Shown: piece after piece, positions 6,938 to 35,730 of the stretch | How the letters are laid out: each line of letters starts with the position of its first letter | Numbering within the stretch: the first letter of the stretch is position 1 | Source of the DNA: a filamentous cyanobacterium CCT1 | GTDB lineage: Bacteria > Cyanobacteriota > Cyanobacteriia > Phormidesmidales > Phormidesmidaceae | Assembly (NCBI GenBank): GCA_003017855.1 | Contig: PYER01000019.1 | Span: 1 to 44,806, forward strand | Length of the DNA stretch: 44,806 bases | Direction of reading: 5' to 3' | Translations under genes and position numbers: made by a program | Notes under the pieces: model-generated | What the model was told of the DNA's origin: nothing | Seen by the model: only the letters and a program-made list of their open reading frames with translations | Database searches by the model: none

Positions 6938-7045
6938 TTGTATGTAGTGACTTATAGAATTCAGGAGCCAGGACTATCTATCTGCTTAATTGAGGAGGGA
7001 TGAGAGTGAGATTATCAAACTCAGAGATAGAGTAAGAAACAATCT

Positions 7046-8122: not shown

Positions 8123-8269
8123 CTCGATGTCTCATTTCTTATGGTTTGGATTCATCGATGGGAATGATCAAGTTCATCATTCTCTTGTAACTAATTACTC
8201 TTCTCCCCATGCCGGATCAGAGAAGATTTGGAGAAGAATCTTTGCAACTTAGTGGAGATTTGGTGAAGG

Positions 8270-10270: not shown

Positions 10271-10290
10271 TCACCAAAGGAGGTGGACTT

Positions 10291-11441: not shown

Positions 11442-11454
11442 TGCCTGTCGATCC

Positions 11455-11487
11455 GGCGTAAGGCGCTTCCTACGCCAACCCTTTTTT
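11455..11487 (+). terminator. Probable terminator after the stb-like operon
   Basis: GGCGTA (11455-11460) pairs with TACGCC (11471-11476) around a ten-base loop. Five bases later comes a run of six T. The short stem and the spacer before the T run make it a weak to moderate terminator. Confidence 0.5.
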
Positions 11488-11518
11488 CTAGCTATTCCCA
11501 AATTACTAAGGAGGTCTG

Positions 11519-12010: not shown

Positions 12011-12017
12011 GACTATC

Positions 12018-17992: not shown

Positions 17993-20140
17993 ATGGAACA
18001 GGCCCAACTTAACTGGATCGCCAACTTCATCTGGGGTATTGCGGATGACGTACTCCGTGACCTCTATGTTCGGGGTAAGTATCGGGATGTAATTCTCCCG
18101 ATGACAGTCCTGCGCCGCCTGGATGCTGAACTGGAGGCAACCAAGCAAGCGGTGCTTGAGATGAAAGCGAACCTAGATGCCGCCGAAATCGTCAATCAGG
18201 AGGTGGCGCTGCGACAGGCGGCGGGGCAAGCCTTCTACAACACTTCCAAGTTCACCCTGCGAGATTTGCGCAATCGCGGCAATCAGCAGCAGCTCAGAGC
18301 CGACTTCGAGGATTATCTGGATGGTTTTTCCTCAAACGTGCAGGATATTCTCGACAACTTCGAGTTTCGCAACCAGATTCCACGCCTCTCTAAAGCTGAT
18401 GCTCTTGGGACGCTGATCGAGAAGTTACTTGACCCGGCTATTAACCTCAGCCCCAAGCCGGTACTCAACGGCGACGGATCGGTGAAACATCCAGGTCTCG
18501 ATAACCATGCTATGGGCACCATCTTCGAGGAGCTGGTGCGCCGCTTCAACGAAGAGAATAACGAAGAAGCGGGAGAGCACTGGACACCACGGGATGCCGT
18601 GAAGCTCATGGCCCGGCTGATCTTTCTGCCCATTGCTGATCAGATTGAATCGGGCACCTACCTGCTCTACGACGGAGCTTGCGGCACGGGCGGAATGCTG
18701 ACCGTTGCAGAAGAAACCCTGCAAGAGCTGGCGAAAGACCACGACAAGCAGGTCTCTACATACCTCTACGGGCAAGAGATCAACGCCGAGACCTATGCGA
18801 TCGCAAAAGCCGACCTGCTGCTCAAAGGCGAAGGCGAAGCCGCAGACAATATCATCGGAGGCCCGGAGCATTCGACCTTGGCCAACGATGCCTTCCCAGC
18901 CCGTGAGTTTGACTTCATGCTTTCCAATCCGCCCTACGGCAAGAGCTGGAAGGGCGATCTGGAGAGGATGGGTGGCAAAAGCGAGATGAAGGATCCTCGC
19001 TTCATGATTGAGCACGCTGGGGATCCTGAGTACTCGCTGATTACCCGCTCAAGCGATGGCCAGATGATGTTTCTGGCGAATATGCTCGCCAAGATGAAGC
19101 ACGGCACCACCTTGGGGAGCCGTATTGCCGAAGTTCACAACGGCTCATCGCTGTTTACTGGCGATGCTGGTCAGGGGGAGAGCAACATCCGTCGCTGGAT
19201 TATTGAAAGCGACTGGTTAGAGGCGATCGTCGCCCTGCCGCTCAACATGTTTTATAACACGGGCATTGCTACCTACATCTGGGTACTGGGCAACCGCAAG
19301 CCCCCTCACCGCAAGGGCAAGGTGCAGCTGATTGACGCAACGAAGTGGTTTAAGCCGCTGCGGAAAAACTTGGGCAAAAAGAACTGCGAATTGTCAGAGG
19401 AAGATATCCAAAAGGTCTGCGATACCTTTTTGGCCTTTGACGAGAGTGAAGAATCCAAAATCTTCCCCAATCAGGCCTTTGGGTACTGGAAGGTGACTGT
19501 AGAGCGGCCCCTCCGGCTTCAGGTGCTGCTAAACGCAGAAACCTGTGCTGCGTTTCGTCGAGTCTGTACACCGCTCAAGGAAGAGCCTCTGGCGAACCTG
19601 GTGGCTCAAGCCCATGAGGTTTTGGGCGCGGGCCTGCATAACGACTACAACGAGTTTTTGACCGCGTTGAAGAAGCTTGCCTCCCAGAGCAATGTCAAGC
19701 TCACCGCCAAACGAGAGAAGCTCCTACAAGCTGAGTTGGCCCAAAAGGATGAAGCAGCTCAGCCGGTAATTAAGAAGATCCATAAACCGGGCAAGGTCGA
19801 AGCCAACTCGCTCTATGGTCGCTATGAGGTAATGCTGGAGGGCAAAGGCTGCGTAGTGGAATACGAGCCTGATACAGAACTGCGCGACACGGAGCAGGTA
19901 CCTTTATTGGCAAATGGTGGCATTGAAGCCTTTATTCAGCGGGAGGTGCTGCCCCACGCCGCCGATGCCTGGGTAGATGAGAGCAGTATCAAAATTGGCT
20001 ACGAGGTGAGCTTCACCCGCTACTTCTACAAGCCCCAGCCGCTGCGCACTCTTGTCGATATCCGCGCCGATATCGTGGCGCTTGAGAACGAGAACAAGGG
20101 ATTACTAGAGGAGATTATTGGGGGCATTGGCCTGACATGA
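17993..20140 (+). CDS. hsdM: Type I restriction-modification system methyltransferase subunit HsdM
   Basis: A 715-residue N6-adenine methyltransferase subunit. The N-terminal HsdM_N helical domain occupies about 1-170. The AdoMet motif DGACGTGGMLTVAEETLQEL is near residue 227 and the catalytic NPPYGKSW near 313, both intact. The C-terminal 200 residues are helical and would contact the specificity subunit. It is longer than the classical EcoKI subunit (about 530) but normal for the cyanobacterial subtype. It overlaps the next gene by four bases (ATGA), so hsdM, the DUF262 gene and hsdS form one translationally coupled unit. Confidence 0.95.
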   Translation: MEQAQLNWIANFIWGIADDVLRDLYVRGKYRDVILPMTVLRRLDAELEATKQAVLEMKANLDAAEIVNQEVALRQAAGQAFYNTSKFTLRDLRNRGNQQQLRADFEDYLDGFSSNVQDILDNFEFRNQIPRLSKADALGTLIEKLLDPAINLSPKPVLNGDGSVKHPGLDNHAMGTIFEELVRRFNEENNEEAGEHWTPRDAVKLMARLIFLPIADQIESGTYLLYDGACGTGGMLTVAEETLQELAKDHDKQVSTYLYGQEINAETYAIAKADLLLKGEGEAADNIIGGPEHSTLANDAFPAREFDFMLSNPPYGKSWKGDLERMGGKSEMKDPRFMIEHAGDPEYSLITRSSDGQMMFLANMLAKMKHGTTLGSRIAEVHNGSSLFTGDAGQGESNIRRWIIESDWLEAIVALPLNMFYNTGIATYIWVLGNRKPPHRKGKVQLIDATKWFKPLRKNLGKKNCELSEEDIQKVCDTFLAFDESEESKIFPNQAFGYWKVTVERPLRLQVLLNAETCAAFRRVCTPLKEEPLANLVAQAHEVLGAGLHNDYNEFLTALKKLASQSNVKLTAKREKLLQAELAQKDEAAQPVIKKIHKPGKVEANSLYGRYEVMLEGKGCVVEYEPDTELRDTEQVPLLANGGIEAFIQREVLPHAADAWVDESSIKIGYEVSFTRYFYKPQPLRTLVDIRADIVALENENKGLLEEIIGGIGLT

Positions 20141-22239
20141 AGGCAACGGAATCCAAGCTACTAGCGTTTCTCAAAAAGTCACCACAGTTCATCATTCCGA
20201 TTTATCAGCGTACCTATTCATGGACGGGTAAGGAATGCCTCCAACTGTGGGAAGACATTCTGCGAGCTGGGCGCAATGACAGCATCTCAGCCCACTTTAT
20301 TGGGTCGGTGGTGTATATCGAGCAGGGACTCTACCAGGTGTCGAGTCAGTCTCCCCTGCTCGTTATTGATGGACAGCAGCGACTCACCACCATTACGATT
20401 TTGATCGAGGCCTTAGCTAGGATCTTGGGCGATACCGAACTGATTGACGGGTTTTCTGCCAGGAAGCTTCGGAACTACTACCTGCTTAACCCAGAAGAAG
20501 CTGGAGAGCGCAGTTTTAAGCTGCTCCTCACCCAAACGGATAAGGACACCCTGCTAGCCCTTGTACAGCAGAAGGATCTACCGAAAGAGCACTCGCTGCG
20601 CGTGAGAGAGAACTTCGAGTTTTTTGAAAAGCAGATAGCAGCTCACCAGAACAACTTGGTTCCTCTATGCCAGGGGCTTGCCAAGCTCGTGATCGTCGAT
20701 GTGGCGCTCAACCGAGATCAAGATAACCCCCAGCTCATTTTCGAGAGCATGAACTCGACCGGGCGCGAACTAAGCCAGGCCGACCTGATCCGCAATTTTA
20801 TTCTCATGGGGCTAAAGCCTGACCACCAGACCCAGCTGTACGAAGACCACTGGCGACCGATGGAGGTAGAGTTTGGCCAGGATGCCTACGGCAGCTACTT
20901 CGATAGCTTCATGCGCCACTACCTGACAGTGAAGACTGGCGAGATTCCCAACATCCGCGATGTCTATGAGGCCTTCAAAAATCATGTGAGATCTAACGAC
21001 AGCAATGTTGCCGGAGTCGATCAACTGGTAGCCGATATCCATGCCTATGCTCGCTATTTTTGCGCCATGGCCTTGGGCAAGGAGACCGATAAGGGCTTGG
21101 CCGAAGCCTTTCGGGATCTACGGGAGCTAAAGGTGGATGTAGCCTATCCGTTTTTGCTGGAGCTGTACCACGATTACCAAAACGGCATCCTGCCGAAAGA
21201 GCACCTGATAGAGGCGGTACGGCTGACAGAAGCCTACGTGTTTCGTCGGGCAGTGTGTGCTATCCCTACCAACTCGATGAACAAAACCTTTGCCACCTTT
21301 GGCCGGGCGTTCAAGAAGGATCGCTACCTAGAGAGCATCCAGGCTCATTTCATGCTGCTGCCCTCCTATCGGCGGTTCCCAAAGGACGAGGAGTTTAAGC
21401 GCGAGATCAAGGTACGCGATCTCTACAAGTTTCGTAGCCGCTCCTACTGGCTGCGCCGGATGGAAAACTATGGCCGCAGAGAGCGGGTGCTGGTGGATGA
21501 ATTTACCATCGAGCATATCCTGCCGCAGAACGAGAACCTCTCACCGGCATGGCAAGAGGCCCTTGGCCCTGAATGGCAACGCATTCAGCAAACCTGGCTG
21601 CACACCCTGGGCAACCTCACGCTGACGGGCTACAACTCCGAATACAGCGATCGCCCCTTCCCCAGCAAACGCGACATATCAGGCGGCTTTAAGGAGAGCC
21701 CACTGAAGCTCAATGCCGGGCTGGGGCTGGTCGAGGTCTGGGACGAGGCGGCCATTCAGGCGAGAGCAGAGCGGTTAGCGGGTCAGGCCGTGGATGTATG
21801 GAAGGCCCCAGCCATTCCGCCAGATGTGGTGGATGCATACCGAGCTGTGCCGCAGAAGACCGATGGATACACCATTGAGGATCATCCCTATTTGATGGCG
21901 AGTGCTATGCGGCCTCTGTTTGAAGCGTTTCGATCGCAGGTGCTTGCCCTCGACTCAGTGGTGAATGAGGAGTTTCTCAAGCTCTATGTAGCCTACAAAG
22001 CGGAAACAAACTTTGTTGATGTGGTGCCCCAGGCAAAGCGGCTACGGCTGTCGCTGAATATGCGGTTCCCGGAGATCTATGACCCTAAGGGACTGTGTAA
22101 GGATGTGACTAACCTAGGCCGGTGGGGCAATGGCGATGTGGAAGTTGGGCTAGAGACGCTAGAGGAGTTGCCCTATGTGATGGGGCTAATTCGGCAGGCG
22201 TTTGAGAAGCAGATGGGCAATGGAGAGGGCACAGAATGA
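20137..22239 (+). CDS. DUF262/DUF1524 (GmrSD-like) protein in the hsd operon
   Basis: A 700-residue protein. The N-terminal DUF262 ParB-like domain shows FIIPIYQRTYSW at about 18-29 and VIDGQQRLTTIT near 82, the NTP/DNA-processing motifs of the family. The C-terminal DUF1524 HNH nuclease-type domain is seen as IEHILPQNENL near 458 and TLGNLTLTGYNSEYSDRPF near 491. GmrSD relatives cut modified DNA; copies inside type I operons are known and may act as a second, modification-sensitive nuclease. It overlaps hsdM and hsdS by four bases each. About 110 further residues follow the nuclease domain. Confidence 0.92.
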   Translation: MKATESKLLAFLKKSPQFIIPIYQRTYSWTGKECLQLWEDILRAGRNDSISAHFIGSVVYIEQGLYQVSSQSPLLVIDGQQRLTTITILIEALARILGDTELIDGFSARKLRNYYLLNPEEAGERSFKLLLTQTDKDTLLALVQQKDLPKEHSLRVRENFEFFEKQIAAHQNNLVPLCQGLAKLVIVDVALNRDQDNPQLIFESMNSTGRELSQADLIRNFILMGLKPDHQTQLYEDHWRPMEVEFGQDAYGSYFDSFMRHYLTVKTGEIPNIRDVYEAFKNHVRSNDSNVAGVDQLVADIHAYARYFCAMALGKETDKGLAEAFRDLRELKVDVAYPFLLELYHDYQNGILPKEHLIEAVRLTEAYVFRRAVCAIPTNSMNKTFATFGRAFKKDRYLESIQAHFMLLPSYRRFPKDEEFKREIKVRDLYKFRSRSYWLRRMENYGRRERVLVDEFTIEHILPQNENLSPAWQEALGPEWQRIQQTWLHTLGNLTLTGYNSEYSDRPFPSKRDISGGFKESPLKLNAGLGLVEVWDEAAIQARAERLAGQAVDVWKAPAIPPDVVDAYRAVPQKTDGYTIEDHPYLMASAMRPLFEAFRSQVLALDSVVNEEFLKLYVAYKAETNFVDVVPQAKRLRLSLNMRFPEIYDPKGLCKDVTNLGRWGNGDVEVGLETLEELPYVMGLIRQAFEKQMGNGEGTE

Positions 22240-23672
22240 TTGGTGAGTTGAAGCCTTATCTGACCTACAAGGATTCTGGGGTACCGTGGTTAGGGGAGGT
22301 TCCAAAACATTGGGCCTTGGTGCGAATAAAAAACCTTTTCCGGGAAGTTGATCGACGTAACGGGAATAGTGGCAGCACTCTATTATCCCTAACCCGTTCT
22401 CGTGGAATTCTTCCCCAAGCAGAAGCGTCAAAACGAATAGCAAGCGTTGAGGATCTTTCTAAATATAAGCTTTGCAAACCTGGCGACTTAGTAATGAACC
22501 GCATGCAGGCTTGGTCAGGTATGTTTGCCGTCTCAACCTATGAAGGCTGTATCAGCCCAGATTACAGTCTATTCCTACCCGTAAAACCAGTCGAAGTTAA
22601 ATACTTCGAGCATTTATTCAAGACTCCATTGCTTGTAGAACAGTTTGCACAGCGATCTAAAGGCATTGGGACAGGGTTTAATCGACTATATACGCCGGAC
22701 TTTGGTGTTGTTCCACTTGCCCTTCCACCCCTCGAAGAACAAGCCCAAATCGCAACCTTTCTTGACTACGCTGATCGCCGCATCCGCCGCTACATTCGCA
22801 GCAAGCAAAAACTCATCAAACTACTCGACGAACAAAAGCAAGTCGTCATCAACCAAGCCGTCACCCGTGGCCTCAACCCCAACGTCCCCCTCAAGCCCTC
22901 CGGCATCGAATGGCTCGGCGATATTCCAGAGCATTGGGAGGTTGTTAAACTAGGGCGGCTAATTAATCTCAAGACAGGTTTTCCTTTTAAGAGTGATGGA
23001 TTCTCAGAAGATGAAAATGATATCCGACTTCTTCGAGGGATTAACATTACTCCAGGTTGTCTGAGATGGAATGATGTAGTTCGCTGGCCAAGATCTGAAT
23101 ATTCTCTGTTTCAAGAATTTGATCTTCGTCTGGATGACTTGGTATTGGGAATGGATCGCCCGATCATAAGTAGTGGGCTTCGAGTCTCATTGGTTACGGA
23201 AAATGATATCCCATCGCTGCTACTGCAACGTGTGGCTCGAATCCGACCTCTTCGGGAACTGCATACTCAGTTTGCTTATTTGATTCTAAGAGGAAAAATC
23301 TTCTCTAATTATCTGGCACCAATTTTTACGGGGATTAGTGTTCCTCATATAAGCCCTGAGCAGATTGCTGGATTCCGCATAGCACTACCAACGGTACAGG
23401 AGCAAACTTCGATTGTTCAGGAGGTTGAAAGATTGACAACTGGACTCAACGTTGCGATTGAAAAGGCTAATCAGGAAATCTCCCTCCTTCATGAATTCCG
23501 TATCCGCCTGATAGCCGATGTCGTCACAGGCAAACTCGACGTGCGCGAGGCCGCCGCCCACCTGCCCGCAGAGCTAAACGAGCCAGAGCCACTTGAAGAC
23601 GATCTGCCCGCTGAACTAGACCTCGACGCCGACAGCGACCTTGAAGCCACAGCCGAGGATGAAGCCGCATGA
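22236..23672 (+). CDS. hsdS: Type I restriction-modification specificity subunit HsdS
   Basis: A 478-residue specificity subunit with two target-recognition domains. Each half opens with the repeated motif SGVPWLGEVPKHW (about residue 14) and SGIEWLGDIPEHW (about 222). Conserved helices follow each TRD (LPPLEEQAQIATFLDYADRR and LPTVQEQTSIVQEVERL). The last 35 residues are an unusual acidic tail rich in Glu, Asp and Leu. The two TRDs set the bipartite recognition sequence, which cannot be predicted here. It overlaps the DUF262 gene by four bases. Confidence 0.95.
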   Translation: MIGELKPYLTYKDSGVPWLGEVPKHWALVRIKNLFREVDRRNGNSGSTLLSLTRSRGILPQAEASKRIASVEDLSKYKLCKPGDLVMNRMQAWSGMFAVSTYEGCISPDYSLFLPVKPVEVKYFEHLFKTPLLVEQFAQRSKGIGTGFNRLYTPDFGVVPLALPPLEEQAQIATFLDYADRRIRRYIRSKQKLIKLLDEQKQVVINQAVTRGLNPNVPLKPSGIEWLGDIPEHWEVVKLGRLINLKTGFPFKSDGFSEDENDIRLLRGINITPGCLRWNDVVRWPRSEYSLFQEFDLRLDDLVLGMDRPIISSGLRVSLVTENDIPSLLLQRVARIRPLRELHTQFAYLILRGKIFSNYLAPIFTGISVPHISPEQIAGFRIALPTVQEQTSIVQEVERLTTGLNVAIEKANQEISLLHEFRIRLIADVVTGKLDVREAAAHLPAELNEPEPLEDDLPAELDLDADSDLEATAEDEAA

Positions 23673-23946: not shown

Positions 23947-24996
23947 ATGAAAGGAGAGGTGCTAAAACGGCTGTTTCGGGCTGTTGCCAGTGACGACTCA
24001 CAGGCAATACACAGCATGCTGTCCGTTGTAGTCGAAGAAGAGCGCAAGTTGGGCCACACAACCCTTGCCGAACAGCTTGATAACATCCTTCAAAAGAGCA
24101 ATCAACTTTCAAAATCTGAACAACTATCTTTAGTCTCTCCATCCAAGATTTCTTCAAGGCTCTCTGAAGAGACTCTCTCTAGCTCATCTGCTTCAAAGCC
24201 TCTCACATTACTATCGAGTAAGCGCCGATTCGATCATCCCTTTATCGTTGCGATTCCACGTGAGCGTTTGCGGCATCACATGGTTTTGTCTGATGCGATT
24301 GAAGATCGCTTTTGCCGCATTGAGCGGGAATATGCTGCCCGCGATCGACTAGCTCACCATGGCTTGCGATATCGCCAAAAAATCCTCCTTTATGGTTCTC
24401 CCGGCTGTGGCAAAACCATGGGCGCAGAGCGCATTGCATGGAACACCGGGCTGCCATTAGTAAAGGTGCGTTTTGATGCAATGGTCTCTTCTTATTTGGG
24501 CGAGACCGCTACCAACCTGCGCGAGGTCTTTGAAACAGCAGTAGCTAGCCCCTGCCTACTCTTCATAGACGAGTGCGATGCCCTTGCGAAATCGCGGGAA
24601 GATACTCAAGAAGTAGGAGAAATTAAGCGAGTAGTTAATACCTTCCTACAGCTTCTGGACGAGTATGAAGTGTCTAACGGCTTGCTTGTCGCCGCGACTA
24701 ATCTAACCAAGTTTTTAGATGAAGCCGTATGGCGAAGATTTGATGACGTTATTGAAGTTCCCAAACCAACAGAGTCAGAGATTCGAGCTATCCTTGATCA
24801 AACGCTCGCCTCAGTTGAGGTCGGATCGGTAGATTGGAAGGCAATAGTGCAGAAAATGGTTGGCTTCTCAGCAGCTCAAATTGTTAAGATTGCCCAAAAT
24901 GCTGCAAAGCGTGCCATCTTGGATCGAGAAGAACTCGTCATCCAAGAGCATTTAGAAGCCTCCATTCAAGACGTTCTAGTCTCCCATGTCGGATAG
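23947..24996 (+). CDS. ietA: AAA+ ATPase, IetA-like
   Basis: A 349-residue AAA+ ATPase of the FtsH/Cdc48-like branch. A helical N-terminal region (1-95) precedes the ATPase core: Walker A LLYGSPGCGKTMGA at 148-160, Walker B CLLFIDECDA at 203-212, sensor-1 VAATN, and arginine finger RRFDD. A small helical lid ends the protein. It overlaps the following subtilisin-like gene by 11 bases, so the two are made together. This ATPase-protease pair matches the described IetAS defence system; the ATPase probably gates or activates the protease. The name is by architecture and pairing, not alignment. Confidence 0.85.
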   Translation: MKGEVLKRLFRAVASDDSQAIHSMLSVVVEEERKLGHTTLAEQLDNILQKSNQLSKSEQLSLVSPSKISSRLSEETLSSSSASKPLTLLSSKRRFDHPFIVAIPRERLRHHMVLSDAIEDRFCRIEREYAARDRLAHHGLRYRQKILLYGSPGCGKTMGAERIAWNTGLPLVKVRFDAMVSSYLGETATNLREVFETAVASPCLLFIDECDALAKSREDTQEVGEIKRVVNTFLQLLDEYEVSNGLLVAATNLTKFLDEAVWRRFDDVIEVPKPTESEIRAILDQTLASVEVGSVDWKAIVQKMVGFSAAQIVKIAQNAAKRAILDREELVIQEHLEASIQDVLVSHVG

Positions 24997-27619
24997 CTCA
25001 GCTAATTTTCCTCATCTCAGACTTCGATTAGCCAGAGAAGGCATTGCAGCTCCGCCAAGAGGTGGCAGGAAAGTTTCCCCAACCACTTCGACGAATAAAG
25101 GTAATGCTGGAGGTCATGGGAGCAAACTTAAGTCGTCAGTTGATCTGATCGTTGCCAACTGGGATACTGAAAAGGAAAAGCGAAAAGAGGAAGGCAAGCC
25201 AGACCTACCTGATGCTGTTTCATTTATCCTTGAGATCGATCCACGTTCCTTTGATGCAGACGCCCTAAGAAGCTTCGGCATTGAAGTCGTTGCCGATTTG
25301 GAAGAGGGATACATCATCGGTGCCTCGGCAGATACCGAGCTGTCTGAGCTGCGCAAGAAAATTGAACAGTTTATTAACGCTGAACGAGGCGGGGGAAAAG
25401 TTCCAGAGATCTGGGAACTCCTCGAAGGCACCCGACGCCCTGAGTACATCCTTTCGGATCGGCTCAAAGAGGAATGGGAGAACCTTTCAGAAACTCAAGA
25501 ATTCTTTGTCGATGTGGGCATCTCCTGTATCGACATTCGAGAGCAATATTCCAGGTGTCCAAAGCGAGAGAGATATAAGACGGACGAAAGCTACCAAAAG
25601 GGTATACAGAAATGGTTATCTAAGCACAACCTGAAGCGGACAGAGTGGGACGACCTCTTCGATGAGCGATTCGATCAACTTCATGCTTTTGTTAGAGATT
25701 ACAACGGCCAAGTACTCGACACGATTGAGAGCAATGAAATAGGTGTTGCGCGGTTGCCCGACAGCTTTTCATGCCGCATCCGGATCACCGGAAAGGGGCT
25801 GAAAGACTTGGTTCTAAACTTCCCTTACATCTTTGATGTTTCTGAGCCAGATGAATTTTGCGTACCCCCTATAAATCCAGAGGCTGAGGGAGACGATCAT
25901 GATAGTTTCGCCCTTGAGCCACCGGATCCTAATGCACCTCGGGTCTGCGTCATTGATAGTGGCATTCAAGAGCAGCATCGGCTTTTACGCTCTGCGATCG
26001 ACTCACCTCGTTCAAAATCGTGGGTACCCGGAGATGCCCTAACCGCTGACTACGTCGTAAATGGTGGACATGGCACTCGTGTGGCAGGAGCGGTTCTTTA
26101 TCCTCGTAGGATACCGACAACAGGGCAGTTGGAAGCCTTATGCTGGCTGCAAAATGCCCGGATTCTCGGTCGAAATAATCGCCTGCCAGATGGTGTTTTC
26201 CCCCCTGAGGTCTTGGAAGAAATTGTCGAGTACTACTATAGCCTCACCAGAACTCGTATCTTCAACCACTCGATAACCGGCGTTACTCCCTGCCGAACTC
26301 AGTCAATGTCAGCCTGGGCAGCAGCGATTGATAAGCTCACCTGGGATAGGGGAGGAGATCTCCTGCTCATTGTTGCTTCAGGTAACCTCCATCCCGACCT
26401 AAACCTCATTACTCGACCATCTCTCGCAGCCCACATACAAGCGGGCAGAAGCTATCCAAACTATTTGCAAGAAAAGTCTGTTCGAGTCGCAAACCCAGCA
26501 CAAAGCTTTCAGGCTCTAACCGTTGGGTCAGTTGCCCATACTACCTACCAGAGTCCTCCCCTACGTTCTTTAGCAGAGCAAGATCGTTGCTCTGCATTCT
26601 CCTGTACTGGCTTTGGGATTTGGAACACCATCAAACCAGAGGTAGTGGAATATGGCGGCGACTTTGTCATTGACTCGGATACTTCCCCAAACTTTACCCA
26701 CCCTGAGCCTGTTTGCCCTGAGTTAGTTCGATCAACCTTACATGGTGGTAAGGCAGTCAGTGCCGATGCCATTGGCACTTCATTTGCGGCTCCGAAGGTT
26801 ACCCACATCGCCGCAGCCCTAGCTTCAGCATTTCCAGAAGAGAGCGCTTTGCTCTACCGCGCCCTCATTATTCAGTCGGCTCGCCTACCTGAGTGGACCA
26901 ATGAATCGGTCGATAAAATTTACCATGGGGTTCGTACCATGGGTTACGGCATTCCTGACCTTGGTCGGGCTTTGGGGAACTCACTCAATCGTGTAACACT
27001 TACAACCTCTGGCAATGAATACATAGGAGCGCGGCAAGCAAAGGTATTCCAGGTTCAAATACCAGAATTTTTGCTCCAGCAAGGAGAGGGTTTCGACATC
27101 CTTATCGAAATTACTCTGTCTTACGTTGCTGAACCCCGCCGTACACGGCGCAATCGTCGAAAATACTTGTCAACCTGGCTCGACTGGACTTGTAGTAAAA
27201 GTGGGGAAGATCCAGGAGTATTTCTGGCTAGAGTACTCAAGGAATATGACCAAGCATCACCAGATGCTGAGGAAGGAGAAGGACTGTTTCCTTGGACTCT
27301 GGGGAAAAGACAATTGAGGGCTAATGGAGATGCGTCTAGAAGCTCACAGGGTATTGATGGAAGGGTTAAAGAGGCTTCCAGAAGCACAGGAACCATCCAG
27401 AAGGATTGGGCCATCGTGAAATCCTACAATCTGCGTGAGGGTTTCTGCATCGCGGTGGTGGGGCATGAAGGGTGGAACAAGAACCCAGAAGTAACGGTAC
27501 CCTACTCCCTAGTTGTCAGCTTTGAGGCGGTCAGCTCGGAAATCTCGATTTATGAGCCCTTTGTGCAAGTTCAGCAGCAGCTACAAGTACAAGAGCAGGT
27601 CAGTCTCACTGTTTCTTGA
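24986..27619 (+). CDS. ietS: Subtilisin-like S8 protease, IetS-like
   Basis: An 877-residue cytoplasmic serine protease with no signal peptide. The N-terminal 300 residues form a charged extension, probably the contact with the AAA+ partner. The subtilase core has all three catalytic residues: Asp324 in VCVIDSGIQ, His362 in GGHGTRVAG and Ser599 in GTSFAAPK. A C-terminal 200-residue region follows, ending in a glutamine-rich tail. With its ATPase it fits the IetAS anti-phage pair. It sits between hsdS and hsdR of the type I locus on the same strand, an unusual nesting. The substrate is unknown. Confidence 0.87.
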   Translation: MSDSSANFPHLRLRLAREGIAAPPRGGRKVSPTTSTNKGNAGGHGSKLKSSVDLIVANWDTEKEKRKEEGKPDLPDAVSFILEIDPRSFDADALRSFGIEVVADLEEGYIIGASADTELSELRKKIEQFINAERGGGKVPEIWELLEGTRRPEYILSDRLKEEWENLSETQEFFVDVGISCIDIREQYSRCPKRERYKTDESYQKGIQKWLSKHNLKRTEWDDLFDERFDQLHAFVRDYNGQVLDTIESNEIGVARLPDSFSCRIRITGKGLKDLVLNFPYIFDVSEPDEFCVPPINPEAEGDDHDSFALEPPDPNAPRVCVIDSGIQEQHRLLRSAIDSPRSKSWVPGDALTADYVVNGGHGTRVAGAVLYPRRIPTTGQLEALCWLQNARILGRNNRLPDGVFPPEVLEEIVEYYYSLTRTRIFNHSITGVTPCRTQSMSAWAAAIDKLTWDRGGDLLLIVASGNLHPDLNLITRPSLAAHIQAGRSYPNYLQEKSVRVANPAQSFQALTVGSVAHTTYQSPPLRSLAEQDRCSAFSCTGFGIWNTIKPEVVEYGGDFVIDSDTSPNFTHPEPVCPELVRSTLHGGKAVSADAIGTSFAAPKVTHIAAALASAFPEESALLYRALIIQSARLPEWTNESVDKIYHGVRTMGYGIPDLGRALGNSLNRVTLTTSGNEYIGARQAKVFQVQIPEFLLQQGEGFDILIEITLSYVAEPRRTRRNRRKYLSTWLDWTCSKSGEDPGVFLARVLKEYDQASPDAEEGEGLFPWTLGKRQLRANGDASRSSQGIDGRVKEASRSTGTIQKDWAIVKSYNLREGFCIAVVGHEGWNKNPEVTVPYSLVVSFEAVSSEISIYEPFVQVQQQLQVQEQVSLTVS

Positions 27620-27765: not shown

Positions 27766-30750
27766 ATGAAGACAGACACCAGCGAGAAAGGATTAGAATC
27801 CTTGATCGTCAACGCGATGACCTGCCAGCCTCAAGCTGCTCATCCAAGCGGAGTTGTCAGTGATACCTCTGGCTCCTATGGCCAGTGCTGGATTCAAGGC
27901 CACTCCACCGACTATGACCGAGACTATGCCATTGATCTGGCCCAGCTCACTGCCTTTCTGAAGGCAACCCAGCCAGAGCTAGTTGAAACCTTCGAACTTG
28001 AGAATGCCAGCCCAACCCGGCACAAGTTTCTCTCCCGCTTGCAGGGCGAGATTACCCGACGCGGTACCATTGACGTGCTGCGCAATGGTGCTAACCACGG
28101 GCCACATAGCATCGATCTGTTCTATGGCACCCCGTCTCTAGGCAATCTCAAAGCCGCTGAGCGCTATGCTCAAAATCGGTTCAGCGTGACCCGGCAGCTC
28201 CACTACAGCCGCGATGAAACTAAGCTCTCCCTTGATCTGTGTCTGTTCATCAACGGGCTACCCATCGCCACCTTTGAGCTAAAGAACAACCTCACCAAGC
28301 AAACGGTGGAGGATGCTGTTGAGCAGTATCGGCGCGATCGCGACCCCAGAGAACTGCTATTTCAATTTGGCCGCTGCGTAGTTCATTTTGCTGTGGATGA
28401 TCAGGAAGTGCGATTTTGCACCTACCTTCAGGGCAAAGGCTCTTGGTTTTTACCGTTTAACCAAGGCTACAACGATGGGGCCGGAAACCCTCCGAACCCC
28501 GACGGGATTAAGACCGACTACCTATGGAAGCAGATTCTGGCTCCTCGCAGCCTCACCAACATTCTGGAGAACTTTGCCCAAATCGTTGAAGAGAAAAACG
28601 AAAAGACTGGCAAGAAGAAAAAAAAGCAGGTGTTTCCCCGCTACCACCAACTCGACGTGGTGCGTAAGCTGCTGGGTGATGCCAACCAACAGGGATCTGG
28701 CCACCGCTATCTCATTCAGCACTCCGCTGGCAGCGGCAAATCTAACTCAATTGCCTGGCTCGCTCACCAGCTGCTTGGCCTTGAACATGACGGGCAGCCC
28801 GTATTTCATTCCATTCTGGTAATCACCGATCGCCGCCTGCTCGACAAACAAATTCGTGACACCATCAAACAATTCGTACAGGTCGGCTCAACGGTAGGAG
28901 CAGTGACAGAGGGTTCCAAACAGCTTAGGGATTTTATCGAAAGCGGCAAACGCATCATCATCTCGACCGTTCAAAAATTTCCCTTTATCTTGGATGAGAT
29001 TGGAGCCGATCATCGAGGGCGAAGCTTTGCGATCATCATAGACGAAGCCCATTCCAGTCAGGGGGGACGTACCTCTGCGGCAATGGCGATGGCCCTGTCA
29101 GAGTCTGGGGCAGCAGAGGACGATGAAACCCCAGAGGACCGCATCAACCGCATCATGGAGTCGCGGAAGATGCTGCCCAATGCCAGCTATTTTGCTTTTA
29201 CAGCAACGCCAAAAAACAAAACCCTAGAGCTCTTTGGCGTACCTTACCAGAGCGAGGGGAAAACCAAGCACCGCCCCTTTCACAGCTACACTATGAAACA
29301 GGCCGTACAGGAAGGCTTCATCCTCGACGTGCTGAAGTATTACACGCCGGTTAACAGCTACTACAAGCTGATCAAAACCATTGAGAATGATCCTGAGTTT
29401 GACACCAAGCGGGCTAAAAAGAAGCTCCGTAAGTACGTGGAGAGTAACGATCACGCCATTCGGTTAAAGGCCGAAATTATGGTTGATCACTTCCACGAAC
29501 AGGTGATCGCCCTCAACAAAATCGGCGGCCAAGCACGGGCCATGGTGGTAACCAGTGGCATTGAGCGAGCTATTCAGTATTTCCATGCTTTTCAGCGCTA
29601 TCTAAAAGAGCGCAAGAGCCCCTACCAGGCGATCGTTGCCTTCTCTGGCGAGCATGAGTATGGCGACACCAAAGTGACCGAAGCTTCCCTCAATGGTTTC
29701 CCCAGTAGCCAGATCCCTGACAAACTTCAGGAGGATCCCTACCGGTTCCTGATCTGTGCCGACAAATTTCAAACCGGCTACGACGAGCCGCTTCTCCATA
29801 CAATGTACGTCGATAAGCAGCTTTCCAGCATCAAGGCCGTACAAACCCTCTCCCGGCTCAACCGTGCCCATCCCAAAAAGCACGATGTGTTTGTACTCGA
29901 CTTCATAAATGACGTAGACACCATTGCTGCGTCCTTCGCTGATTTTTACCGTACAACGATCTTAAGTGATGAGACCGACCCTAATAAGCTCCACGATCTA
30001 AAAGCCGCTCTCGATAGCTACCAGGTTTATGCTTCTGAAGAGATCACAGAACTCACTCACCTCTATCTCAGTGGAGCAGACCGCGATCGATTAGATCCCA
30101 TCTTGGATGCCTGTGTTGCTGTCTACAATGAGAGCTTAGATGAAGATGGACAGGTGGATTTTAAGGGTAAGGCAAAAGCCTTCTGCCGTACCTACGGCTT
30201 CTTGGCCTCGATCTTGCCCTACACCAATGCTGAATGGGAAAAGCTGTCCATATTTCTGACGTTCCTTGTCCCTAAGCTCCCTGCTCCTAAGGAAGAGGAT
30301 CTTTCCAGAGGAATCCTTGAGGCGATCGACATGGACAGCTATCGCAGCGAGAAGCAGGCTACTATCCGCATTCAGCTCCCCGATGCTGAAGCCGAGATAG
30401 AGCCAGTTCCGGTCTCTGGTGGTGGGTTTAAGGCCGAGCCAGAACTAGATCGCCTCTCCAACATCCTTCAGGTCTTTAATGACCAGTTTGGTAATGTTGC
30501 ATGGACTGATCGCGATCGTGTTCATAAACTCATCACTGAAGAGATACCTGCCAAGGTAGCTGCAGATCCTGCGTTCCAGAATGCGAAGAAGAACTCCGAT
30601 GAACAAAATGCTCGCATCGAGCACGAGAAGGTGCTACGGCGAGTGATTATTGATGCCATGAAGGATGATACCGAACTGTTCAAGCAGTTCAGCGACAACG
30701 ACTCATTTCGCAAGTGGCTGACTGATACGATTTTTTCGATGAATTATTGA
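27766..30750 (+). CDS. hsdR: Type I restriction endonuclease/translocase subunit HsdR
   Basis: A 994-residue motor-nuclease subunit. The N-terminal PD-(D/E)XK nuclease domain is seen in LDLCLFINGLPIATFELKNN, with Glu171 and Lys173. The SF2 translocase carries HSAGSGKSNS near 322, IIIDEAHSSQGG near 424, and SYFAFTATPKNKTLELFG near 475. A helical C-terminus contacts the methylase complex. The start is supported by TTGGAGCAGCT directly before ATG. Length is normal for this family. It is 146 bases after the subtilase gene, and one base separates its stop from the next start, so the downstream fusion gene is coupled to it. Confidence 0.95.
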   Translation: MKTDTSEKGLESLIVNAMTCQPQAAHPSGVVSDTSGSYGQCWIQGHSTDYDRDYAIDLAQLTAFLKATQPELVETFELENASPTRHKFLSRLQGEITRRGTIDVLRNGANHGPHSIDLFYGTPSLGNLKAAERYAQNRFSVTRQLHYSRDETKLSLDLCLFINGLPIATFELKNNLTKQTVEDAVEQYRRDRDPRELLFQFGRCVVHFAVDDQEVRFCTYLQGKGSWFLPFNQGYNDGAGNPPNPDGIKTDYLWKQILAPRSLTNILENFAQIVEEKNEKTGKKKKKQVFPRYHQLDVVRKLLGDANQQGSGHRYLIQHSAGSGKSNSIAWLAHQLLGLEHDGQPVFHSILVITDRRLLDKQIRDTIKQFVQVGSTVGAVTEGSKQLRDFIESGKRIIISTVQKFPFILDEIGADHRGRSFAIIIDEAHSSQGGRTSAAMAMALSESGAAEDDETPEDRINRIMESRKMLPNASYFAFTATPKNKTLELFGVPYQSEGKTKHRPFHSYTMKQAVQEGFILDVLKYYTPVNSYYKLIKTIENDPEFDTKRAKKKLRKYVESNDHAIRLKAEIMVDHFHEQVIALNKIGGQARAMVVTSGIERAIQYFHAFQRYLKERKSPYQAIVAFSGEHEYGDTKVTEASLNGFPSSQIPDKLQEDPYRFLICADKFQTGYDEPLLHTMYVDKQLSSIKAVQTLSRLNRAHPKKHDVFVLDFINDVDTIAASFADFYRTTILSDETDPNKLHDLKAALDSYQVYASEEITELTHLYLSGADRDRLDPILDACVAVYNESLDEDGQVDFKGKAKAFCRTYGFLASILPYTNAEWEKLSIFLTFLVPKLPAPKEEDLSRGILEAIDMDSYRSEKQATIRIQLPDAEAEIEPVPVSGGGFKAEPELDRLSNILQVFNDQFGNVAWTDRDRVHKLITEEIPAKVAADPAFQNAKKNSDEQNARIEHEKVLRRVIIDAMKDDTELFKQFSDNDSFRKWLTDTIFSMNY

Positions 30751-30751
30751 A

Positions 30752-33334
30752 ATGCAAAAACTAGATGATTTTATTGGACAGATATGGGAGGCTAATGAGC
30801 TCCTTCGTAGTACTTTTGTATACGGTAATTATGCAAACGTACTACTACCATTTTTCTTTATCCGCAGGATGGATTGCTGCTTAAGGGCGGACGCTTATAG
30901 TCACTTCAGGAAGTTTTTAAAGACACAGTCTGACGTAGATCTTGCCAGCGTAGAATGCAGCCCGCCTAATACCCGCTCCATTGATTTATGCAGACCTAGT
31001 CCTTTCCAATCTGATGATAAGGAAGCGTACTTCGACACTATATTGCAATATGTTGATGGATTCGAAGTAGAAATCCAGGAAGTTTTCGATGGTTTTGACT
31101 TCAAAAGTACTCTCTTACAATTAAAAAAGGCGGATACTCTCCAGGATGTAGTGGATCATTTTAAGAGCATTGATCTACATCCAGCCGCACTTAGCAACGA
31201 TGAAGCTGCCCTTCTTGTTCAGGCAATCATTCAACGGTTCGCTGAGAACAACGGAGATTATCTTGCCGAGCATTCCACTCCTAATGATGTCGCTCGCCTT
31301 ATAGTTGCACTCCTTTTTGCAGGTGAGGAAGAAATTATCGGTTCCTCTAATGTAATTTCAATTTGTGATCCAGCCATGGGTATGGGTGGTTTTTTGCACG
31401 AAGCAGTAGATTACACATGTAGTGTGAGTTCTAACATTCGTCCTCTTGTTTTTGGTCAAGACTCGAATCGGTTCGCCTTTGCTGTATCTAAGGCTACTTT
31501 CATACTCAAGGGATTTAGTTCTGAGGGTCTTGCCTTAGGCAGCACCCTTTCGAAAGATCAAAATTCGGAGAGTCTTTTTGACTATATGTTAACCGCCTCT
31601 CCATTCGGGTTGAGCTGGAAGGCTGAGGAGCAGATCATAAAAGCAGAACATCGGCTAGGAAAAGAAGGTCGATTTGGATTTGGTTTACCACGAGTAACCG
31701 ATTCTCAACTGCTCTTCCTCTGTCATATTCTCAAAAGAATGAAAGATCCAAGCACATCCAATGGTAGTAGGGCAGTTGTAGTTATGAACTATAGCCCCCT
31801 TTATTCTGGAGGGGCAGGAAGTGGAGAAAGTGAGATAAGAAGATGGTTATGCGAGAATGACTTACTTGAGTTAATCGTCGCCCTTCCTCGGGATATCTAC
31901 CAAAATACAGGGATTGGAACTTTTGCTCTTGTTTTATCCAATCGAAAGGATCCGCAGCGCCAAGGCAAAGTTCAATTTATTGATGCTAGAAACACTTTTG
32001 AAAGTTTAAGGAAAGCGAAAGACAATAAAAGAGCTTTTTTAACCTCGGCTCACATACAGTCTCTTGTGAAAGAATACCTCACTATGGAGACATCCTCCAG
32101 ATCGCTAATACTAGAAAATAACGCCTTTGGTTTTCAAGAGGTTCTACTTGAGCTAAAGGATGAGCGCGATCCTGCTAAGCGCTACGAAGCAAGCACTACC
32201 GAAATTATCCCTTTGGAGAAAGATGCTCTCAATCGACTTACGGAAGAGCTCGAAGTAGAAGGTAGCACTTTTTCTGTGGTTCCTGGTAGCGAGAAGGTGG
32301 GGTATCGGATCAGATTCAACCAAATTGTGGCTGAACAAGAAATGTCTTTGCAGCTAGACAGCTTAGCAGTTAGGGGACGGGGATATACGAAAACAAGATT
32401 TGGCAAGTTATTTGAAACCTTGTTTAGAATTGATTCTCAGGAAAAACCGTTAGAATATCAAAATTCGCTTTTCTTCCCTATGAAACTTTCCGGCAGCATC
32501 AAGACATCTCTTGAGCAGCCATTTGGTGATTACATTCAAATTGTGCTGAGAGAGGATTTGATTCTCAGCGACTATGCCAGGATCTTCTTTGAATCAAGGG
32601 AAGGAAAGCTTTGTCTAAGCACAATCTATGAAGGATATACTGTACCTCGGACTACCATTACGGATATCAAACAAATGTGGGTTGCATATCCCACATTGGA
32701 AGAGCAAAAGCTTTTAATAGAAGCTGATCGAAAAGTTTTAGCCTTAAAGAGAGCAATTAGTGAGTTTGAAAGCGAAATAGTATTCAATATTGCTGATGTC
32801 AGAAATCTAATTCCTCAGCTTAATGCTGTTTTGTATTCTTTGGATAAACTTTCGGGAGCTGACAAGATCCTTTCCTTGGTTCGCCAGGGCGAGACTAAGA
32901 CTATTGAATTCAAAGAGACTCTATCTTGGGATAAAAGGACAGGAAAAAAAGAGAAATATATTGAGCTAGCTTCGCTGAAGAACGTAGCTGCTTTTTTGAA
33001 TACTAATGGAGGGTTTTTGCTTATCGGGGTTGCAGATGACGGCTCTATCCCTGGCATTAATGTTGAGATTGAAAAGTATTACAATGATAATAGAGATAGG
33101 TTTTTACTTCATTTCAAGAATTTGCTCAAAGAAAAGATTGGGGAATCTTTTTATACTCATATTGATTACGGATTAACGGATGTAGAGTCAGGTGCCGTCT
33201 TGTTAGTTCAAGTTGAACCCTCTGAAAGAGCTTGTTTTATAGATGGAAAGGATTTTTACGTGAGAGTTAACCCTGCTACCGATAAGTTGGAAGGGGAGAG
33301 TTTAGTTGAATATTGTCGTCAACGCTTCAAGTGA
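30752..33334 (+). CDS. HsdM-like degenerate methylase - HsdS-like TRD - Schlafen/AlbA_2 fusion protein
   Basis: An 860-residue three-part protein. Residues 1-470 align with HsdM: FIGQIWEANELLRSTFVYGN at the start, an AdoMet motif altered to ICDPAMGMGGFLHEA near 205, and the catalytic NPPY replaced by ASPFGLSW near 281, so adenine methylation is unlikely. About 535-690 resembles half an HsdS (target-recognition segment ending in PTLEEQKLL plus a helix). About 707-860 is an AlbA_2/Schlafen-type domain: TKTIEFKETLSWD, then NVAAFLNTNGGFLLIGVADD. It starts one base after the hsdR stop. The base composition is more AT-rich than hsdR, hinting at separate ancestry. Guarding or modulating the type I complex is inference. 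Confidence 0.75.
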   Translation: MQKLDDFIGQIWEANELLRSTFVYGNYANVLLPFFFIRRMDCCLRADAYSHFRKFLKTQSDVDLASVECSPPNTRSIDLCRPSPFQSDDKEAYFDTILQYVDGFEVEIQEVFDGFDFKSTLLQLKKADTLQDVVDHFKSIDLHPAALSNDEAALLVQAIIQRFAENNGDYLAEHSTPNDVARLIVALLFAGEEEIIGSSNVISICDPAMGMGGFLHEAVDYTCSVSSNIRPLVFGQDSNRFAFAVSKATFILKGFSSEGLALGSTLSKDQNSESLFDYMLTASPFGLSWKAEEQIIKAEHRLGKEGRFGFGLPRVTDSQLLFLCHILKRMKDPSTSNGSRAVVVMNYSPLYSGGAGSGESEIRRWLCENDLLELIVALPRDIYQNTGIGTFALVLSNRKDPQRQGKVQFIDARNTFESLRKAKDNKRAFLTSAHIQSLVKEYLTMETSSRSLILENNAFGFQEVLLELKDERDPAKRYEASTTEIIPLEKDALNRLTEELEVEGSTFSVVPGSEKVGYRIRFNQIVAEQEMSLQLDSLAVRGRGYTKTRFGKLFETLFRIDSQEKPLEYQNSLFFPMKLSGSIKTSLEQPFGDYIQIVLREDLILSDYARIFFESREGKLCLSTIYEGYTVPRTTITDIKQMWVAYPTLEEQKLLIEADRKVLALKRAISEFESEIVFNIADVRNLIPQLNAVLYSLDKLSGADKILSLVRQGETKTIEFKETLSWDKRTGKKEKYIELASLKNVAAFLNTNGGFLLIGVADDGSIPGINVEIEKYYNDNRDRFLLHFKNLLKEKIGESFYTHIDYGLTDVESGAVLLVQVEPSERACFIDGKDFYVRVNPATDKLEGESLVEYCRQRFK

Positions 33335-33772: not shown

Positions 33773-34477
33773 TCACTTCATCTTCTGAAGCTGTGCCACT
33801 TGCTCCCGATACATAGCAGCCTCTCGCGCTTCCTTCGTAAGTTTGTCTGACAGATCCTGCGATCGCGATCGCTCACGATCCAGATCATTCTCTACCCGAG
33901 ATAGCTGGGCCTCAGCCGTGGCAGCCCGAGCGGTTTCCTGAATTACTCGTTCCGATAGGCTCTGAATTTGTTTTTCCAGCTCAGCACACCGAGTTTTTGC
34001 CGTCTCTAGTTCACCTCGCATTTGCTCTGTTACTTGGGAGTGAGAGTAGGCCTCTTGGGTTAGCTGGTCTCGCTGACTGCGGATTAGGGCGAGCTCTTCC
34101 TCCAATTTGGAGTTATTCCCCTGAAGGGCTTCTAGTTCCTGAAAGGCCTCCCTAATTTCCTCTTCAAATTCTTTACTCTGCTCGGCAGTGACCTTCTTGA
34201 TGGCCCGGATCTCTTGCTGCGCCCAGTTGGAAGCTGCTTTCCAAACTGCTCGTACCATCTGGCTACCTAGCTCCCGAATTGGGTCAGGAATCTCCTCGTC
34301 GTTTGCTGCGCTGGAGTTTTCACGGTCCTCCTTACGCCACTCGCGAAGGTGATTTGAGATGGTGGAGAAGGATCCACGATTCCCTAATGCGGTTCGAATC
34401 GAGCTTACGGTGATCTTGCGATCCTGCTCCTTGAACTGCTGAGCAAGGAGGAAGACCTCTTCCTTGGTAATGTGCAC
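33773..34477 (-). CDS. kfrA: KfrA-like plasmid DNA-binding coiled-coil protein
   Basis: About 234 residues. The N-terminal 60 residues carry the KfrA_N DNA-binding region (KITVSSIRTALGNRGSFSTI, then SNHLREWRKE). Residues 85-234 are an almost unbroken coiled coil (EEEIREAFQELEALQG, ETAKTRCAELEKQIQSLSER). Such proteins autoregulate and help plasmid maintenance by forming filaments around DNA. I favour the GTG at 34477, since GGAGGGAG precedes it by five bases; an ATG at 34492 has no ribosome binding site. It is divergent from the recombinase gene. Confidence 0.8.
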   Translation of the reverse strand: MHITKEEVFLLAQQFKEQDRKITVSSIRTALGNRGSFSTISNHLREWRKEDRENSSAANDEEIPDPIRELGSQMVRAVWKAASNWAQQEIRAIKKVTAEQSKEFEEEIREAFQELEALQGNNSKLEEELALIRSQRDQLTQEAYSHSQVTEQMRGELETAKTRCAELEKQIQSLSERVIQETARAATAEAQLSRVENDLDRERSRSQDLSDKLTKEAREAAMYREQVAQLQKMK

Positions 34478-34540
34478 AGCCACTCCCTCCATTGGTCTAC
34501 GAGAGGGTAGACAGTGAAGTGTAGGGAGTCAACTAGATTA

Positions 34541-34644
34541 CGTAGCTACGGATGTAGTACAGGTGTAAAACCGTAAGTTACAGGGCATGGAGACGCGCCC
34601 TTAGCAAAAAGGAACTGCTTTGGTATGAAAGCTGTCAGCTGACA
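34541..34644. promoter_or_regulatory. Two perfect palindromes between kfrA-like and recombinase genes
   Basis: CGTAGCTACG (34541-34550) and TGTCAGCTGACA (34633-34644) are perfect palindromes in the 272-base divergent gap. Either could be an operator for the KfrA-like repressor or part of a recombination site. A run of seven C follows the second. Confidence 0.4.
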
Positions 34645-34749
34645 AATCCCCCCCTTTCCACTACTGATTTTCTGTTACATAATCCCTTTTTATGTCATGC
34701 AATTAACACTGGCGAGGATATCCTATCTGAGCGCCTTCGTGGACCCACT

Positions 34750-35730
34750 GTGAGTAATCTGATTCGGCCCCTAAGCGATTTGCCTGTGCTTCCAGGCAGT
34801 GAATTTCTCTTGCCCGCTATCTTAAGCCGGGCTAGTGAGCGAACAACTTACCGGTACCTTGAGTTTTTCACCGCTGGGATCCGAAACCCGAACACCCGCC
34901 TTGCGTACTACCGAGCCCTTACCCGGTTCTTTGACTGGCTTGAGGAGCGGTATTCCGGCCTTGAACTCCACCAGGTGAACTCCATTGTGGTGGCCCAGTA
35001 TGTGGAAGTTCATCCAGGGTCTGCTCAAACCCGGAATCAGCATCTTTCTGCCATTCGCTCGCTCTTCCGGTGGCTCGTTACCGGTGGCGTGATAACCGAG
35101 AACCCAGCCGCAGAAGTCCGTGGTGTGAAGCATCGAGTGAAGCGCGGTAAGACACCTGTGCTCACGGATGATGAGATGAAGGCACTCCTCTCAAGTATCG
35201 ACCCCGACGATATCGTGGACCTGCGCGATCGAGCACTTATTGCGGCAATGTTTTTTAGCTTTGCCCGAGTTGCTGCTGTGCTTGGGATGAACGTTGATGA
35301 CTACTTCTCAAAGGGCAAACGGTACTGGTTCCGGCTCCACGAAAAAGGTGGCAAGTATCATGAAGTGCCGGTGCACCACACGGCTGAGGAGTACCTCGAT
35401 CTCTACATGGATAAGGCGAACTTGTGGAATGAGAAGACCACTCCCCTATTTCAGACTGCACCTCGCCGCTCTCGAGCGCTTACTGGTGTTCGGTTACAGC
35501 GCCAGGAAGCCTGGGCGATGGTGAAGCGCCGGGCGCAGGCTGCTGGAGTCAGCACTGATGCGTGTAATCATACCTTTCGCGCGAGCGGCATTACGAACTT
35601 TCTGCGTAACGGCGGTAGCCGCGATAATGCTCAGAAGATCGCGGCACATGAGGACATTCGTACTACCGCTTTATACGATAGAAGGGATGAAGCAATTTCT
35701 CTCGATGAAATCGAGCGGATACGTTTGTAG
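34750..35730 (+). CDS. Tyrosine recombinase / integrase, apparently intact
   Basis: A 326-residue site-specific recombinase. The N-terminal SAM-like domain (YRALTRFFDWLEERY, HLSAIRSLFRWLV) covers about 40-125 and the catalytic domain 135-326. The catalytic residues are all present: Arg173 (FARVAAVLGM), Lys199 (HEKGGKYHEVPVH), His274 and Arg277 (NHTFRASG), His300 (AAHEDI) and nucleophile Tyr309 (TALYDRR). The gene starts with GTG at 34750. It could resolve plasmid dimers or integrate the element; no attachment site was identified. Size and spacing fit the XerC/D-like plasmid class rather than phage integrases. Confidence 0.92.
   Translation: MSNLIRPLSDLPVLPGSEFLLPAILSRASERTTYRYLEFFTAGIRNPNTRLAYYRALTRFFDWLEERYSGLELHQVNSIVVAQYVEVHPGSAQTRNQHLSAIRSLFRWLVTGGVITENPAAEVRGVKHRVKRGKTPVLTDDEMKALLSSIDPDDIVDLRDRALIAAMFFSFARVAAVLGMNVDDYFSKGKRYWFRLHEKGGKYHEVPVHHTAEEYLDLYMDKANLWNEKTTPLFQTAPRRSRALTGVRLQRQEAWAMVKRRAQAAGVSTDACNHTFRASGITNFLRNGGSRDNAQKIAAHEDIRTTALYDRRDEAISLDEIERIRL

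Follow-up and report, generated by a model that had tools for sequence, protein, structure and literature searches.

A type I restriction-linked fusion of an HsdM-like part, half an HsdS and a Schlafen-type AlbA_2 domain: a candidate decoy-tethered effector

INTRODUCTION

Why does a type I restriction operon that already encodes a full HsdM and a full HsdS carry, directly behind hsdR, a third methylase-like gene whose product ends in a Schlafen domain? Type I restriction systems are among the commonest bacterial defenses, and PrrC is the classic tRNase held inside one; human Schlafens and SAMD9 are antiviral proteins. Here, we analyzed the product of this gene, P0001, and its relatives. Computation shows that P0001 joins three parts and has lost the catalytic Asn of its methylase; that the active-site residues of the AlbA_2 domain are conserved and the fusion genes often lie with type I genes; and that related AlbA_2 domains were joined more than once to hsdM genes of different lineages. 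We propose that P0001 is a type I restriction-linked effector with a putative AlbA_2 RNase domain mounted on a decoy M/S subunit, a reading that could as well be wrong as right, with activity, docking and trigger all inferred.

RESULTS AND DISCUSSION

The home operon and its element

The window, i.e., the whole stretch of DNA analyzed (44,806 nucleotides), contains an operon in the order hsdM, GmrSD+DUF5655, hsdS, IetA, IetS, hsdR and the fusion gene:

17993..20140, + strand: hsdM, 715 aa
20137..22239, + strand: GmrSD_N/GmrSD_C/DUF5655 protein, type IV-like, with 4-base overlaps with hsdM and hsdS
22236..23672, + strand: hsdS, 478 aa, two specificity domains
23947..24996, + strand: IetA-like AAA ATPase within the operon
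24986..27619, + strand: IetS-like subtilase within the operon
27766..30750, + strand: hsdR, 994 aa, no AlbA_2 domain
30752..33334, + strand: HsdM-like/half-HsdS/SLFN_AlbA_2 fusion protein P0001, uninterrupted ORF, 860 aa

The start codon of P0001 lies one base past the hsdR stop codon (30748-30750). The initial annotation had used this spacing to assign the gene to a type I operon that already has full hsdM and hsdS genes; both points held, and the operon is larger than it stated, with the GmrSD+DUF5655, IetA and IetS genes. The IetA-IetS (AAA + subtilase) defense pair sits between hsdS and hsdR (window 23947-27619), its two genes overlapping by 11 bases and flanked by gaps of 274 and 146 bases. 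Elsewhere, the window (3119-14018 and 33773-35730) encodes a TrwC-type relaxase, a TrwB/TraD coupling protein, a KfrA_N protein and an XerC/D-type recombinase. The source genome is cyanobacterial, with phycobilisome genes present, and we infer from the conjugation genes in the window that the operon is located on a conjugative-plasmid-like element of this cyanobacterium.

Three-part architecture of P0001

Four features could be delimited within P0001:

30752..32086, + strand: HsdM_N and N6 methylase-like part, residues 1-445 (Pfam, motif alignment, structure)
31595..31606, + strand: degenerate motif IV, codons A282 S283 P284 F285 (NPPF/Y in aligned HsdMs)
32315..32851, + strand: half HsdS, one TRD-like unit plus conserved helix, residues ~522-700
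32891..33289, + strand: SLFN_AlbA_2 domain, residues 714-846 (Pfam, alignment with rat SLFN13)

Pfam identifies HsdM_N (residues 10-137, 1.7e-8), N6_Mtase (159-445, 3e-39) and SLFN_AlbA_2 (714-846, 1.2e-17), and PADLOC matches its type I methyltransferase model (1.3e-128) and, weakly, a type I specificity subunit (residues 594-676, 6.3e-5). The AlphaFold model has a mean pLDDT of 82.7, reaching ~97 in the AlbA_2 part, with a low-confidence linker at residues 447-520. Its M part matches the solved structures of PacII and other HsdM at Z 31-33 (424 aligned at Z 33), and structure comparison also shows a likeness to chains that combine a methyltransferase with a single TRD (CamA, M.TaqI, BsaXI and LlaGI). 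The initial reading of the protein as a fusion of a dead HsdM, an HsdS-like TRD and a Schlafen domain thus held by Pfam, PADLOC, the HsdS profile described below and the structure match. No named family of Pfam, NCBIfam or PADLOC spans the whole architecture, and no Schlafen-HsdM or Schlafen-HsdR link is described in the open literature that we searched (few preprints and no subscription papers), so the statement that no named system with this layout was known held as well.

Relatives in many phyla

At least 17 relatives of P0001 were found in many bacterial phyla and one archaeon, giving at least 18 members in all. P0002, from a plasmid search, belongs to Pseudoalteromonas nigrifaciens and adjoins an Mrr-like gene and an hsdM-hsdS-(AlbA_2-HATPase)-hsdR cluster. 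P0005 and P0006, from two other cyanobacteria, were found by the C-terminal profile only. The scan of the ~85,000-species collection yielded 14 further fusions, from Pseudomonadota, Thermodesulfobacteriota, Planctomycetota, Chloroflexota, Lentisphaerota, Bacteroidota and Cloacimonadota, plus an ANME-2 archaeon. Genomes that are not related thus share the architecture, frequently with type I genes next to it, and the absence of such homologues, which would have refuted the initial annotation, can be set aside.

No fusion was found in viral contigs, which held one AlbA_2-only locus, or in a phage collection, which gave methylase matches only. No full-length relative was found in 386 genomes of the phylum searched with P0001 or in 65 genomes of the same family, where AlbA_2 occurred only on GmrSD_N-AlbA_2, response-regulator and other proteins. 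At L012, L008 and L009, in the same genome and genus, lies a protein of ~713-731 aa with a GmrSD_N (DUF262-type)-like N terminus, judged by eye, and an AlbA_2 domain, judged by similarity.

State of the methylase part

P0001 has the HsdM_N plus N6_Mtase domain content of a type I HsdM but fails the catalytic (N/D)PP(F/Y) motif. Its motif IV reads ASPF (residues 282-285), with A282 replacing the catalytic Asn, whereas 21 of 21 aligned HsdMs have NPPF or NPPY; in the same alignment, the window's own hsdM keeps an intact NPPY. Loss of this Asn should abolish methyl transfer, as is established for adenine methyltransferases. We infer from these motifs that the methylase of P0001 is catalytically dead, its activity being untested. 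Motif I (DPAMGMGG, residues 206-213) is only mildly changed and retains the D-P-x-x-G-x-G-G frame, so AdoMet binding may survive. The initial annotation had called both motifs dead. For motif I this is rejected as worded, since the frame persists; the loss of NPPY held, with the damage in motif IV as ASPF rather than the SPFG given. An intact methyltransferase site would have refuted the annotation, and the loss of the motif IV Asn, checked by sequence motifs and not by model geometry, gives no refutation.

The relatives fall into two size classes. The five long members (783-860 aa; P0001, P0002, P0006, L069 and L071) have a whole HsdM-like part. Both motifs are degenerate in P0002 (motif IV, SFPPI), P0006 keeps motif I and has NPPL, and L069 and L071 keep both DPxxG and NPPF. 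A "dead" methylase is therefore not universal in the family: the term holds for P0001 and most relatives, not for L069 and L071, whose methyltransferase motifs appear intact. The 13 short members (536-652 aa, P0005 included) have a shrunken methylase, with the NPPF site altered in all 13, often to DLPLG, and motif I absent from 12, the exception being L076 with a GMGS-like remnant. In the model of one short member, L068 (pLDDT 92.3), the N-terminal HsdM domain is absent and the HsdM Rossmann core can still be recognized (Z 16, 197 aligned). If the decoy reading is right, the P0001 family would illustrate the decay of a methylase to a mere scaffold.

One alternative is that the fusion is a second specificity or modification protein that methylates, or once methylated, a second site, with AlbA_2 as an accessory. 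The motifs retained by L069 and L071 (DPxxG and NPPF) and by P0006 (motif I with NPPL) speak for it; the missing catalytic Asn of P0001 and the absence of motif I from 12 relatives speak against it and make it very improbable.

Half an HsdS in the middle

HsdS is expected to have two TRDs and two conserved regions. P0001 fails this criterion, having a single TRD-like unit at residues ~522-700. A profile built from the aligned middle segments of all 18 members matches EcoKI HsdS (1.8e-12) and other HsdS chains, and profile-profile comparison of these segments with eight HsdS gave a 96% probability over 80 columns. Pfam Methylase_S is matched in 16 of the 18 members, with the P0001 segment alone below the limit. 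Comparison of the S-halves with the HsdS of their own loci revealed no consistent likeness across the fusions, and tracking of the resident type I system is hence seen for the M part only.

A Schlafen-type AlbA_2 domain with a conserved active site

Residues E714, E719 and D762 of P0001 align with E205, E210 and D248 of rat SLFN13, which are required for tRNA cleavage (PMC5862951), so that the criterion of a Glu-Glu-Asp active site is met. The E-x4-E-F-K motif (E714, E719, F720, K721) is invariant in 18/18 fusions and the D762 position is Asp in 17/18; L071 has Asn in place of this catalytic Asp. By our alignment by spacing, K721 stands at the same distance from the second Glu as K198 of SAMD9, a tRNA-cutting protein in which K198 is essential for nucleic-acid binding (PMC12331169). 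A profile of the fusion AlbA_2 domains matches SLFN12 at 6e-9 and also SLFN8, 11, 14 and 5. Structurally, the AlbA_2 domain of L068 matches the solved structures of the SAMD9 tRNase domain (Z 12.0-12.3, 150-155 residues). The fold match rests on L068, because the structural-match (VIA) list of P0001 tested well only residues 1-671.

P0001 thus qualifies for the Schlafen/SAMD9 AlbA_2 RNases by sequence and active site, and by fold through L068, while cleavage of RNA or tRNA is inferred. A missing Schlafen-like fold in the last 150 residues would have refuted the initial annotation; the match, by sequence in P0001 and by fold in L068, gives no refutation. Its further suggestions of a tRNase, abortive infection and sensing of subverted restriction are supported by the conserved active-site residues and the fold but not shown. 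The E-x4-E-F-K motif itself is no proof of RNase activity, because almost every AlbA_2 domain collected has it, among them those of many proteins whose role is unknown.

Two rival explanations bear on this domain. The fusion may be a regulatory or anchoring subunit without RNase activity, whose AlbA_2 binds DNA or dimerizes and whose decoy part modulates type I assembly or target choice, e.g., in restriction alleviation. AlbA_2 domains have also been described as DNA/RNA binding and multimerizing, and SLFN5 binds tRNA without cleavage (PMC11221667); a half-HsdS could, by inference, compete with HsdS. Against this, the acidic triad and the basic residues are conserved among distant members while the M part decays, and we consider this explanation unlikely. 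The other rival, a decayed remnant without function, has the damaged methyltransferase motifs in its favor and is all but ruled out by the open 860-codon frame beside hsdR, the recurrence in several phyla and the invariant AlbA_2 residues.

Linkage to type I operons

Type I genes were present on the same DNA for 10/18 fusions versus 3/44 other AlbA_2 loci from the same scan (Fisher p 7e-5). This comparison has a weakness: loci with an hsdM can be favored when the ranking is by likeness to P0001, and the 3 positives apparently entered in this way. Gene order varies: R-M-S-Mrr-fusion in L055, R-S-M-fusion in L065 and L076, fusion-M-S-R in L068, and fusion-M-S-GmrSD-R in L069; in L071, the fusion lies opposite an M-S-GmrSD-R operon. 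GmrSD-like genes are thus present in the type I operons of L069 and L071, as in the window. For the other 8/18 fusions, the DNA examined contains no type I genes, 4 of these pieces being <13 kb or ending near the gene. Seven genomes without such neighbors were tested and 7/7 carry HsdS-type domains, a few of the matches being the fusion itself. At L056:8165-14696, a small-genome cyanobacterial fusion is oriented divergently to the gene of a 1272-aa protein resembling, by eye, an SNF2-type helicase, with no hsd genes on the DNA examined.

Proposed repeated recruitment of resident hsdM copies

In the AlbA_2 tree, 17/18 fusions fall into one starred (supported) cluster of 21 rows (100/99), with L076 just outside. 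The M parts are scattered over different hsdM lineages. That of P0001 clusters with the subfamily to which the HsdM of the window belongs (100/99), that of L069 with the adjacent hsdM (71% identity, next best 54%), and that of P0006 lies near the hsdM of L072; the long-branch rows P0002 and L071 remain unplaced. A single origin of the M part is rejected: forcing the M parts of four fusions into one clade costs 222 log-likelihood units (p-AU 4e-79), with the reservation that the data include long branches and that the group was chosen only once the first tree had been built. In the simplest reading, AlbA_2 plus half S was joined several times to resident hsdM copies, or M parts were swapped. 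Repeated capture of resident hsdM copies, if this is right, yields a testable rule that the M part marks the guarded complex.

These results also bear on a possible alternative, a stand-alone DNA-reading effector. Here the M*/half-S part would pair with itself, in the style of type IIG/IIB enzymes or half-HsdS dimers, and read a site and its methylation, and unmethylated phage DNA would switch on the AlbA_2 RNase without any type I complex. In its favor are the likeness of M plus single TRD to the CamA, M.TaqI, BsaXI and LlaGI chains, the 8/18 members without type I genes on the DNA examined, and P0006, which is solo with near-intact motifs. Against it, 10/18 belong to or adjoin type I operons, L069 has an M part copied from the neighboring hsdM, and the short members are without the N-terminal HsdM domain and portions of the methyltransferase core, which a DNA-bound methyltransferase would be expected to need; we regard this alternative as rather unlikely.

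AlbA_2 on HsdR

A C-terminal SLFN_AlbA_2 domain was also found on HsdR, at 23 loci by BLAST (Pfam confirms 6/6 tested), mostly in proteins of 1,150-1,210 aa from Cyanobacteriota, Acidobacteriota, Gemmatimonadota, Myxococcota and others. Examples, among others, are as follows:

L109:9917-13396, HsdR with C-terminal AlbA_2
L115:9947-13405, HsdR with C-terminal AlbA_2
L074:5292-8801, HsdR with C-terminal AlbA_2
L075:247-3753, HsdR with C-terminal AlbA_2
L133:7443-10976, HsdR with C-terminal AlbA_2
L130:8621-13378, HsdR with C-terminal AlbA_2

Most HsdR-borne AlbA_2 domains form their own branch, and the L074 and L075 copies lie inside the fusion cluster.

Proposed function of the fusion

The preferred reading remains an effector tethered by a decoy subunit. 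The apparent recruitment of local hsdM copies and the occurrence of AlbA_2 on HsdR both indicate the type I complex as the place of action. In the model, the M*/half-S part would keep AlbA_2 latent while docked either on DNA or on its cognate complex of HsdM, HsdS and HsdR. Once the type I complex is put out of action, e.g., by an anti-restriction protein of a phage, or becomes locked on foreign DNA, AlbA_2 would be released or paired; it would then cut tRNA or other RNA, so that translation stops and the infection is aborted. No activity, complex or phage data exist for P0001, and trigger and docking rest on analogy only. Given the recurrence in many phyla and an archaeon, the fusion may well be a fail-safe weapon tied to restriction enzymes, although the odds overall seem to us balanced. 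If so, there would be a second, PrrC-unrelated fail-safe with the effector fold of human Schlafen/SAMD9, associated with type I restriction across many phyla.

A bolder reading, which we hold with less confidence and would sooner doubt than accept, is that of an undescribed family in which a Schlafen-type tRNase was repeatedly fused to a resident hsdM copy and half an hsdS as a decoy guarding the type I complex, with a similar module on HsdR. If true, type I restriction would widely have a fail-safe built in, namely a Schlafen-like shut-off of translation.

Comparison with known systems

The fusion has no named family or paper that we could find; by its inferred function, it belongs among the restriction-linked suicide effectors. 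A type IC enzyme keeps PrrC sequestered until T4 infection sets it free (PMC3874165). If AlbA_2 is latent and decoy-tethered, P0001 would act as PrrC does in EcoprrI, through a nuclease and a tether that are both unrelated to those of PrrC. Both are candidate or known RNases within a type I operon, and P0001 would likewise be held latent via the enzyme, by analogy, and act when restriction fails. PrrC is a separate ABC-ATPase/HEPN-type protein, whereas the candidate RNase of P0001 is an AlbA_2 domain in one polypeptide with a decoy M and half S; Pfam finds no ABC ATPase or HEPN-type nuclease domain in P0001. With SLFN11/12/13/14 and SAMD9/9L, the fusion shares the fold, the E/E/D residues and the Lys that follows the second Glu, but it has a single AlbA_2 lobe on a restriction-subunit scaffold, with neither the SLFN tandem core nor an NTPase part, and its activity is inferred. 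P0001 is homologous to both HsdM and HsdS of type I systems, from which it differs by the lost catalytic Asn, the half HsdS and the extra AlbA_2. Type IIG/ISP enzymes and methyltransferase-TRD chains (BpuSI, LlaGI, CamA) likewise unite methyltransferase and TRD in a single chain, but P0001 has no PD-(D/E)XK nuclease or helicase by Pfam, its methyltransferase appears dead, and AlbA_2 is added.

Bacterial Schlafen-HATPase-wHTH proteins accompany BREX (PMC12839542) and are similar in placing an AlbA_2 effector by a DNA-restriction system; one such AlbA_2 protein, P0003 (L035), adjoins hsdS and has HATPase_c_4. Unlike these, P0001 lacks HATPase_c_4 and wHTH by Pfam and carries AlbA_2 on M*/half-S. 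AlbA_2-HATPase_c_4 proteins were observed in or adjoining type I operons at L035:11141-13123 and L084:8259-9761, in L035 together with a fusion.
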